Origin: Pseudomonas putida
Lineage (GTDB): Bacteria > Pseudomonadota > Gammaproteobacteria > Pseudomonadales > Pseudomonadaceae
DNA: 64,000 nucleotides
Direction of reading: 5' to 3'
NCBI RefSeq assembly: GCF_005080685.1
Contig: NZ_CP039371.1
Span: forward strand, 5,208,001 to 5,272,000
A model generated the notes under the pieces. The model ran no database searches and was not told where the DNA came from. It saw only the letters and a program-made list of their open reading frames with translations. The translations under genes were made by a program, and so were the position numbers. Every line of letters begins with the position of its first letter. Within the stretch, counting starts at the first letter, position 1. Below, piece by piece: positions 48,437-55,113 of the stretch.

Positions 48437-48552
48437 TGTGGGAGCGGCCTTGCGTCGCGACAGGGCCGCATAGCGGCCCCATCAATTTCGCCACGTCGCT
48501 GACACCCTGGGGCCGCTTTGCGGCCCTTTCGCGACGCAAGGCCGCTCCCACA
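48437..48552. repeat. Long inverted REP pair between adk and tsaB
   Basis: Perfect 24-bp inverted arms (48437-48460 and 48529-48552) with core TGTGGGAGCGGCCTTGCGTC. Inner GC-rich palindromes (AGGGCCGCATAGCGGCCCC and GGGGCCGCTTTGCGGCCC) lie between the arms. It is the same family as the core of the 54.2-kb MITE-like element and differs from the 34.1-kb and 58.6-kb copies. Confidence 0.88.
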
Positions 48553-53317: not shown

Positions 53318-53367
53318 GCCCTGCCCAGCCAACTCAAGCCTTCGCCAACGATCAAAGGATGAACACT

Positions 53368-54153
53368 ATGCGCAACTACGTAATGATTCCCGCCCTGCTG
53401 GCCCTGAGTGTCGGTCTCGCTGCCTGCTCGCACGACCCGAACCCGAACCTGGAATCGGCCCGTACCAATTTCTCCGCGCTGCAAAGCGACCCGCAGTCGA
53501 GCAAGGTCGCCGCGCTGGAAACCAAGGACGCCCAGGACTGGCTGAACAAAGCCGACAAGGCCTTCATGGAACGCGAGGACACCCAGAAAGTCGACCAGTT
53601 GGCCTACCTGACCAACCAGCGTGTCGAAGTGGCCAAGCAGACCATCGCCCTGCGCACTGCCGAAGGCGAGCTGAAAAACGCCTCGGCCCAACGCGCCCAG
53701 GCCAAGCTCGATGCGCGTGACGCACAGATCAAGAAGCTGCAGGACAGCCTCAACGCCAAGCAGACCGATCGCGGCACCCTGGTGACCTTCGGTGACGTGC
53801 TGTTCGACTTCAACAAGGCCGACCTGAAGAGCAGCGCCCTGCCCAACGTCACCAAGCTGGCCCAGTTCCTCCAGGAAAACCCGGAGCGCAAGGTGATCGT
53901 CGAGGGCTACACCGACAGCGTCGGTTCGGCCAACTACAACCAGACCCTGTCCGAACGCCGCGCCAACAGCGTGCGCATGGCGCTGGTGCGTGCGGGCGTG
54001 GACCCGGCGCGTATCGTCGCCCAGGGTTATGGCAAGGAGTACCCGGTGGCGGACAACTCCAGCAACTCGGGCCGTGCGCAGAACCGTCGGGTGGAAGTGA
54101 CCATCTCCAACGACAACCAGCCAGTGGCACCGCGCTCGGTTAGCCAGCGCTAA
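53368..54153 (+). CDS. OmpA-family outer-membrane lipoprotein
   Basis: 261 residues from the ATG at 53368 (MRNYVMIPALLALSVGLAACSH), chosen because AAAGGA lies 8 nt upstream; an ATG at 53359 is the alternative. The lipobox is GLAAC. A DUF4398-like helical region (about 25-130) precedes a C-terminal OmpA peptidoglycan-binding domain (LVTFGDVLFDFNKADLKSSAL, VEGYTDSVGSANYNQTLSERRA, RIVAQGYGKEYPVADN), including the D and R residues that hold meso-DAP. It should tether the outer membrane to peptidoglycan. Its terminator is split by the MITE-like insertion. Confidence 0.93.
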   Translation: MRNYVMIPALLALSVGLAACSHDPNPNLESARTNFSALQSDPQSSKVAALETKDAQDWLNKADKAFMEREDTQKVDQLAYLTNQRVEVAKQTIALRTAEGELKNASAQRAQAKLDARDAQIKKLQDSLNAKQTDRGTLVTFGDVLFDFNKADLKSSALPNVTKLAQFLQENPERKVIVEGYTDSVGSANYNQTLSERRANSVRMALVRAGVDPARIVAQGYGKEYPVADNSSNSGRAQNRRVEVTISNDNQPVAPRSVSQR

Positions 54154-54194
54154 GCAGTCGGCCTGGTTGACAGTAAAAACCCCGCCTGATGGCG

Positions 54195-54381
54195 TAATGC
54201 TGTTCACTTAAGCTCGACATCGCCGGCATTGGGGCCGCTTTGCGGCCCATCGCGACACAAGGCCGCTCCCACACTGACCGCGTAAGCCCTTATCTACAGG
54301 GCAAGCACGGACAATGTGGGAGCGGCCTTGTGTCGCGATGGGCTGCGCAGCAGCCCCGGCATTCTTAAGTGAACAGCATTA
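54195..54381. mobile_element. MITE-like element with REP core
   Basis: 187 nt bounded by perfect 17-bp terminal inverted repeats (TAATGCTGTTCACTTAA at 54195-54211; its complement at 54365-54381) and flanked by a 12-bp direct repeat CGCCTGATGGCG (54183-54194 and 54382-54393) that looks like a target-site duplication. Inside is a perfect 28-bp inverted REP-type repeat (54246-54273 and 54315-54342). It has no coding capacity. A 12-bp duplication fits an IS4-type transposase acting in trans, but the parent IS is not in this window. Confidence 0.75.
54246..54342. repeat. REP-type inverted pair inside the MITE-like element
   Basis: 28-bp perfect arms (54246-54273 and 54315-54342) with core GGGAGCGGCCTTGTGTCGCG, closely matching the 48.4-kb copy. 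The 41-nt spacer holds a smaller imperfect palindrome. Confidence 0.85.
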
Positions 54382-54491
54382 CGCCTGATGGCGGGTTTTT
54401 CATGTTTGAACCCAAAAGACACCTTTAAAAGCACTCTTGAAAGCACTAGGATTACCAGACTCAAAATCCCGCTTCATGAGTTGATACAACT

Positions 54492-54758
54492 ATGACCTAC
54501 GCCGTTCTCGCCGATCTGGCAGCATCCATCACCGACTTGAAGAGAGACCCCATGGGTACTATCCGCGAAGCCGCTGGTGAAACCGTGGTCATCCTCAATC
54601 GCAACGAGCCGGCCTTTTATGCGGTACCGCCGGAGCGCTACGAAGCGATGATGGAACTGATCGACGACATGCAACTGGCCGAGCGGGTTCGCCAACGACG
54701 TGGAAAGCCCACTGTGAAAGTGGACATAGATGAGCTCATCGCCGAAGCCGAAGGCTGA
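54492..54758 (+). CDS. Phd/YefM-family antitoxin without an adjacent toxin
   Basis: 88 residues. The N-terminal Phd/YefM DNA-binding fold is clear (LADLAASITDLKRDPMGTIREAAGETVVILNRNEPAFYAVPPERYEAMM) and the C-terminus (KVDIDELIAEAEG) is the acidic toxin-binding tail. Normally a RelE- or Doc-type toxin follows within a few bases. Here the next 30 nt run into the end of a convergent gene and no toxin can be read, so the antitoxin appears orphaned. Confidence 0.9.
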   Translation: MTYAVLADLAASITDLKRDPMGTIREAAGETVVILNRNEPAFYAVPPERYEAMMELIDDMQLAERVRQRRGKPTVKVDIDELIAEAEG

Positions 54759-54786: not shown

Positions 54787-55113
54787 TCACTGCACCTGCT
54801 GCGGCGTTTCCTCGCCCATGCAGCGCACCGCCCGCTTGCGGTTGTCCACCAGCACCCCGGTCAGGCCCTTCTGCTGGACATCGAACAACACCAACACGCC
54901 ATCGACGCATTGCGCCACCTGCGGCGCAGGCTCGAGGGATGCCTTGTAGTCTTCGCCAGGCACCGTCTTGAGCATGGTGTAGTCCTGCAGCAACAGGGCA
55001 TCCTCGGGCTTGGCGAAATGCAGGTAGCCGTAGTACCAGAGAGCCCCCACCGTCACGATGATGCTGCCGACACCGGTCAGGATCAACGGGATGGCGTTGC
55101 GTTCTTCACTCAT
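54787..55113 (-). CDS. Small membrane-anchored hypothetical protein
   Basis: 108 residues. One N-terminal membrane helix (IPLILTGVGSIIVTVGALWYYGYLHF) is followed by about 75 residues, mostly beta, with two cysteines (AQCVDG and RAVRCMG) that may form a disulfide if periplasmic. Its ATG overlaps the stop of the upstream hydrolase gene by 4 nt, so the two are coupled. Function unknown. Confidence 0.78.
   Translation of the reverse strand: MSEERNAIPLILTGVGSIIVTVGALWYYGYLHFAKPEDALLLQDYTMLKTVPGEDYKASLEPAPQVAQCVDGVLVLFDVQQKGLTGVLVDNRKRAVRCMGEETPQQVQ

Follow-up and report, generated by a model that had tools for sequence, protein, structure and literature searches.

The element and its setting

The DNA analysed here is a 64-kb stretch of the Pseudomonas putida genome (the window), in which a 187-bp element at 54195-54381 lies between a gene for an OmpA-type lipoprotein on one side (PF00691 OmpA, E 2e-25; PF14346 DUF4398 also matched) and a gene for a Phd/YefM-type antitoxin on the other. 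The element has perfect 18-bp inverted ends and a 12-bp flanking duplication, and the features of the locus are as follows.

53359..54153, + strand: OmpA-type lipoprotein gene, owner of the target terminator (open reading frame with the start codon chosen by us; Pfam)
54175..54182, no strand: left part of the split terminator, with A-tract AAAAA (54175-54179) and lower stem CCC (54180-54182)
54183..54194, no strand: left 12-bp target duplication, CGCCTGATGGCG, made up of upper stem, loop and upper stem
54195..54212, + strand: left terminal inverted repeat, TAATGCTGTTCACTTAAG, the same as both ends of the full IS at L094-L099 and L101-L106
54231..54357, no strand: REPIN-like cargo with arms 54231-54290 and 54298-54357
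54246-54273 (- strand) and 54315-54342 (+ strand): identical 28-bp REP cores within the cargo, exact match
54364..54381, - strand: right terminal inverted repeat (18-mer match)
54382..54393, no strand: right copy of the 12-bp target duplication (direct-repeat match to 54183..54194)
54394..54400, no strand: right part of the split terminator, with lower stem GG (54394-54395) and T-tract TTTTT (54396-54400)

The initial annotation had described the terminal inverted repeats as perfect, which they are, but gave their length as 17 bp instead of 18 bp; it was correct as to the 12-bp direct repeat on both sides and the exact 28-bp internal REP inverted repeat. No listed ORF of at least 80 aa lies wholly within the 187-bp element, and two Rfam matches, both far under their gathering scores, were taken as chance. 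Being shorter than about 300 bp, non-coding, multicopy and bounded by inverted ends that match those of an IS, the element is a MITE. With up to three mismatches allowed, the 18-mer TAATGCTGTTCACTTAAG is found twice in the window, each time as an end of the element. A chance origin of the ends was rejected, as 100 dinucleotide shuffles of the window gave 0 matches and the 6.6-Mb P. putida genome contains 32 matches against 1 for the reversed control pattern. Beyond the element, the antitoxin gene (54492-54758) has no evident toxin gene beside it, and the next plausible coding ORF (54787-55113) is on the opposite strand.

When the element and one copy of the duplication are removed, the remaining DNA reads AAAAACCCCGCC-TGAT-GGCGGGTTTTT, a standard intrinsic terminator whose A-tract begins 22 nt past the lipoprotein stop codon. 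Excision had been proposed to restore this terminator, and the target to be itself a small palindrome; both claims stand, the duplication comprising upper stem, loop and upper stem. The 801 bases surrounding the site were searched against 95 related genomes, with a match in 63, and the best 29 of the matches outside the P. putida genome (L173-L201) were read past the stop codon. The 18-bp end, within four mismatches, was absent throughout all 29 orthologous loci, so that fixation of the element across relatives was ruled out. At 25 of these 29 element-free sites a terminator (a stem of at least 6 pairs and a T-tract) starts no more than 80 nt past the stop codon, the sites failing this rule being L177, L179, L183 and L197. 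In L174 and L176, for example, the part corresponding to 54175..54182 is uninterrupted and the stem is nearly that of the window, CCCCGCC-TTGAT-GGCGGGG. The expectation of empty sites with an intact terminator in relatives was thus borne out. With a GC-rich hairpin and a T-tract past a gene at sites free of the element, the target qualifies as a predicted intrinsic terminator.

The autonomous partner

The annotation of the locus had also envisaged a MITE inserted in a terminator, carrying a REP pair and mobilised by an IS with the same ends. Comparative data support this reading, with the qualification that the IS occurs in other Pseudomonas species and was not found in the P. putida genome. 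There, the IS4 N-terminal profile PF13006 gave 0 matches over 32 scored candidates, and a transposase protein search gave 0 over the 5 scored of 8 candidates. The 18-mer with no more than one mismatch is present in 63 of 199 genomes of the genus, and a full 1422-bp IS with both ends identical to those in the window was found in G067, G149, G317 (five), G142 (three), G280 and G080; the ends of L106, L099, L097 and others agree with the window element at 18 of 18 positions. A related 1428-bp IS, with ends starting CAATGC, is present in G005 and G243. Relatives of the transposase at E ≤0.001 were found in 62 of 298 genomes, many of them distant or partial, and a PF13006 survey of 274 class-level genomes gave one partial match.

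The five IS transposases scanned contain Nterm_IS4 (PF13006) and DDE_Tnp_1 (PF01609) and match the NF033592 IS4 family, and the Y-R-E-K residues (Y329, R332, E336, K343) are invariant in 12 aligned transposases. The IS4 subgroup has been described as single-ORF elements of 1400-1650 bp with the YREK motif, 10-13 bp duplications and ends of the form -AATR--------WTW---- (De Palmenaer 2008; PMC2266710), a pattern which TAATGCTGTTCACTTAAG fits (Table 1 of that paper). The partner IS resembles this subgroup in its ends, duplication length, size and YREK motif. Its ends, Y(2)R(3)E(6)K motif, single ORF, length and 10-13 bp duplication place it in the IS4 subgroup of the IS4 family. From the identity of the ends and the shared target rules, we infer that the window element was mobilised in trans.

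Several further features of these IS were observed. Close to one of its ends, the IS in L106 (G067) and L097 (G317) has a terminator-like hairpin of its own, CCGATGCC...GGCATCGG with a T-tract, which may protect it from read-through out of the split terminator. In G317, the left flank of L095 is the same as the duplication of L096 and its right flank comes from another terminator, a swap likely to reflect recombination between IS copies. G067 also contains non-autonomous derivatives of ~690-790 bp with perfect 11-12 bp duplications (L138-L140, L145, L146), some of which overlap fragments of same-family transposases.

REP cargo in P. putida and in other hosts

The 32 end matches in the P. putida genome were grouped by us into 21 elements, with both ends recognised in 11 and one end in 10. 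Further copies had been predicted, as had duplications of 10-13 bp, which are present (≤3 mismatches) in 10 of the 13 P. putida-genome elements analysed and absent from the other 3. Among mismatched duplications, three proved to be inverted, the right copy being the left one in reverse complement, exactly over 10 bp in L158 (216-411) and L415 (2455-2609) and with 2 mismatches in 13 in the L008 element; these inverted duplications look as if they had arisen by palindrome correction or inversion.

The REP arms of the window element are 60 bp each and 83% complementary, with the exact 28-bp core within. A 23-base REP core (≤3 mismatches) is present in both halves of 16 of the 21 elements, in one half of 4 and in neither half of one (L021). 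The REP half has 482 matches across the P. putida genome, and most REPs therefore lie outside this element; with two inverted REPs that have hundreds of copies in the host, the cargo is REPIN-like. The window itself also contains, at 48437-48552, a REP pair that stands alone and lacks the 18-bp ends. Amongst 30 REP loci examined, the inter-REP spacer of the element is matched with 0-6 mismatches in the 9 that are element-borne, against 8-13 in the 21 that are standalone. This pattern fits a single capture of the REP pair, which would then have spread along with the transposon ends.

Elements of other species have these ends around REP-like repeats of other kinds, a result that goes beyond the initial annotation and suggests that the ends took up such repeats separately in different hosts. 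When one interior was folded from each of the 19 genomes that had yielded an element of <450 bp with both ends, the left half paired with the right half in 18, the exception being G067; z-scores ranged from -2.2 to -22.5, and pairing was weak in G170, G012 and G198. The repeats were counted for four hosts, that of P. putida in its own genome alone. The G152 repeat has 402 copies in G152 and 0-8 in five other genomes, that of G086 has 47 in G086 and 0-4 in five others, and that of G172 has 206 in G172, 100 in G067 and 0 in the four other genomes counted. Not every enclosed repeat is strictly a REP, as G099, G198, G084 and G012 share a CCCTCTCCC-type repeat. The G086 elements retain 53-78 bases that can be aligned to the left end of the IS, and the window element just 18-19 end bases. 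Taken as a whole, these comparisons point to recurrent capture of REP-like repeats by the same ends. A copy in G099 (L135) is apparently broken by unrelated DNA shortly past its left end.

Fate of the split terminator

Because target and element are both palindromic, the insertion produces one long inverted repeat ending in a T-tract: the split terminator, the duplications and the ends together form a 37-nt inverted repeat, 86% complementary, around the element. Of 30 element-bearing alleles, 24 reach a mean P >0.5 for re-pairing of the split arms in the predicted RNA. Mean re-pairing in this equilibrium prediction is 0.70, and equal when the interior is shuffled. On this folding model, which predicts pairing and not termination itself, termination may be preserved after insertion, and it is plausible that insertion of such small elements is self-healing, with the REP pair not needed. 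A role for the REP interior in re-forming the terminator was considered and is unsupported by the folding, since shuffled interiors give the same pairing.

These results bear on whether the cargo is itself under selection, a proposal compatible with the element being a terminator-directed MITE, according to which the REP pair is retained since it keeps termination or mRNA 3' ends intact. We regard this as possible, if rather doubtful. In its favour, the interior folds half-on-half in the 18 of 19 host genomes mentioned above and the REP families differ among the hosts counted; against it, the split terminator is predicted to re-pair without the interior as well, and, given the great abundance of REPs, the pattern is also explained by a chance capture that was later amplified.

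Insertion into terminators

A set of insertions was assembled from the IS and their derivatives in the P. putida genome, in other genomes of the genus and in loci from named organisms (at least 80). Of these last, 69 of 80 were searched for ends, 5 of the 69 giving none, and loci were kept with ≤3 end mismatches and ≤1 duplication mismatch, together with L030. Other loci in which two matching ends were unrecognised or doubtful were excluded (L100, L107, L128, L129, L131, L135, L144, L147, L148, L155, L164-L166, L168-L171), and 9 insertions without a recognisable duplication and 2 duplicates were dropped, one duplicate pair being L101 (G280) and L276, a named Pseudomonas record. The 107 distinct sites that remain were thus picked via recognisable ends and duplications, several share genomes, and small elements found later and the E. 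coli IS4 sites are outside the set.

A site was scored as a terminator when its stem had 5 or more pairs (G-U allowed) and ≤1 mismatch, its loop was 3-10 long, its dyad lay ≤2 bp from the centre of the duplication, and the hairpin was followed by T, or preceded by A, at 5 of 7 positions starting within 3 nt. This rule was met by 87 of the 107 insertions against 1115 of 42606 control positions (2.6%) in the same loci, the controls being nearby sequence and not intergenic DNA alone. Terminator insertion is the rule for the IS4-subgroup members examined, which the initial annotation had not foreseen. All 13 sites of the close IS clade qualify, as do 16 of 18 in the second IS clade, 8 of 10 in the P. 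putida genome, 16 of 26 other non-autonomous derivatives and, among the matches listed, 34 of 40 for the wider-survey IS together with L030. Named hosts among the matches listed include Pseudomonas, Xanthomonas arboricola, Acidovorax temperans, Acinetobacter portensis, Grimontia hollisae, Aeromonas finlandensis and Marinomonas aquimarina. Ten of the 20 failures belong to the 26 non-autonomous derivatives from other genomes, and some of the failing sites are palindromes without a T-tract; three copies found later (L357, L372, L397) lie, by our reading, in REP-like heads. The survey suggests that the usual integration target of the group examined is the intrinsic transcription terminator.

Geometry of the target

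The duplication is 10-13 bp long in 98 of the 107 insertions, derivatives included, and the duplicated DNA corresponds to the loop and upper stem of the hairpin, centred on the dyad. The strongest hairpin dyad lies ≤1.5 bp from the centre of the duplication at 89 of 107 sites, compared to 65 of 535 shuffles when ties are broken in one way for both (83 and 31, respectively, when all ties are required to agree). Around the duplication conservation is highest for A at left-arm positions -5, -6 and -7 (98, 90 and 92 of 107) and T at right-arm positions +5, +6 and +7 (94, 96 and 88 of 107).

It could be argued from the latter that the transposase reads a linear pattern only, A-tract N4 - ~11 bp - N4 T-tract, which is common in terminators. 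The conservation of the A and T positions is in keeping with this, as are two E. coli IS4 sites (L209, L211) that have an A-tract and are without a clear terminator. However, when only A/T-flanked sites are considered, 55 of 84 insertions are palindromic (≥6 of 7) against 21 of 985 in the background (the window and the 29 loci, 161206 bases), and the palindrome therefore matters beyond the A/T tracts. In addition, the arm and duplication positions covary beyond permutation, arm positions 1-4 pairing in 85, 77, 78 and 75 of 107 sites against permuted means of 51.7, 58.3, 40.0 and 46.9. We therefore consider the linear pattern an improbable explanation.

A still less probable one, to which we attach little weight, is survivor bias, whereby insertion is wide and only the least harmful copies, those in terminators past genes, persist. 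Terminators are safe sites, and other Pseudomonas repeats, which have been discussed as terminator-like, are likewise mostly intergenic and have been argued to occupy a 'least worst' location (Silby 2009; PMC2718517). Such a bias would be expected to leave copies in harmless intergenic DNA outside hairpins too, and would not account for the exact register of the insertions, with the dyad ≤1.5 bp from the centre in 89 of 107 and the A and T tracts at fixed positions. Recognition of hairpin geometry, rather than of sequence alone, would seem to fit these site comparisons best, and the form read by the enzyme may be a cruciform, a symmetric duplex or a transcription complex.

Discussion

We think it highly probable that the window element is a MITE of IS4-subgroup transposons that aim at intrinsic terminators, mobilised in trans and carrying a host REP pair as cargo. 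In the proposed mechanism, the transposase would come from an IS that shares the 18-bp ends and was not found in the present-day P. putida genome. It would excise the element and insert it via staggered cuts separated by ~11 bp, which would lie symmetrically about the dyad of the terminator hairpin, ~4 bp inside the flanking A- and T-tracts. With cuts placed in this way, duplication would leave a copy of loop and upper stem on each side. For its interior the element would have a copy of the REP pair of its host, probably taken up a single time in this lineage and carried along as cargo from then on, and the transcript could zip into an enlarged terminator hairpin, which would make the insertion near harmless. 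That the element is instead an ordinary REPIN moved by a RAYT, with its ends and 12-bp repeats belonging to the REPIN or its palindromic target, is extremely improbable, for although the REP pair fills the interior and REP dimers within longer palindromes have been reported from a few species (PMC3733652), the same ends bound the 1422-bp IS with an IS4 transposase and enclose other REP families elsewhere, and the 21 standalone REP loci are without the element's spacer (8-13 mismatches against 0-6 in the 9 element-borne loci).

The best-known relative, E. coli IS4, belongs to the same Pfam and NCBIfam families as the partner IS, with 33% identity to L106 and similar ends, and its adhE copy (L207) lies within a terminator hairpin, as here. 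Its targeting is, however, much looser, most of the 12 places examined not being terminators: 6 are one nanX site that is not terminator-like, 4 are in coding or IS-remnant DNA, and the adhE terminator accounts for 2, one of them decayed. Mayaux reportedly described, in 1984, an IS4 insertion in the pheST attenuator. A symmetric target, GGG-N5-CCC, is known for IS231A, which differs from the present elements in subgroup and target. This IS4-family element makes a comparable duplication of 10-12 bp (PMC2266710, Table 1). ISRm22, of the IS4Sa subgroup (PMC2266710), is an IS4-family element that inserts specifically into REP sequences (Tobes and Pareja 2006; PMC1525189), palindromic like the terminator target; there the REP is the target, whereas the present elements insert mainly into terminators and carry the REP as cargo.

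The cargo is like the REPIN of Bertels and Rainey (2011; PMC3116915), in which two inverted REPs are mobile as a unit, with the difference that here the REP pair sits inside the ends of a DDE transposon and is copied along with them. MITEPsy1 and MITEPsy2 of Pseudomonas syringae are likewise small and non-coding with inverted ends that match an IS or transposon, but MITEPsy1 has a 4-nt duplication, a CTAG or YTAA target and different ends (PMC3189936); the words 'terminator' and 'IS4' have 0 occurrences in the text of that paper. For the IS4 subgroup, De Palmenaer (2008; PMC2266710) recorded a 'spectacular' conservation of the target arms. The passages concerned do not say what these arms are, and 'terminator' and 'MITE' have 0 occurrences in the main text. 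In the literature searched, to which subscription papers and ISfinder did not belong, no statement of terminator targeting by the IS4 subgroup was found, and prior notice is possible.

A wider proposition, on which we are evenly divided, is that most of the IS4 subgroup are terminator-seeking transposons that read hairpin geometry, whose MITEs repeatedly capture REP pairs and act as mobile, self-healing terminators, so that REPs are spread by a DDE transposase besides the RAYT. Targeting of tRNA genes, attachment sites or REPs by mobile elements is known. A group of transposons that aims at terminators, if true, would represent a new safe-harbour strategy, and insertions located in terminators would gain a predictable rule, one that bears on read-through between neighbouring genes. 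Such targeting would also account for the conservation of target arms recorded in 2008, for which the passages of PMC2266710 on the arms offer no explanation. Furthermore, whether a transposase can read a DNA hairpin becomes testable. Multiplication of REP pairs is usually credited to RAYT transposases, besides which the REP cargo described here may be a second possible route.
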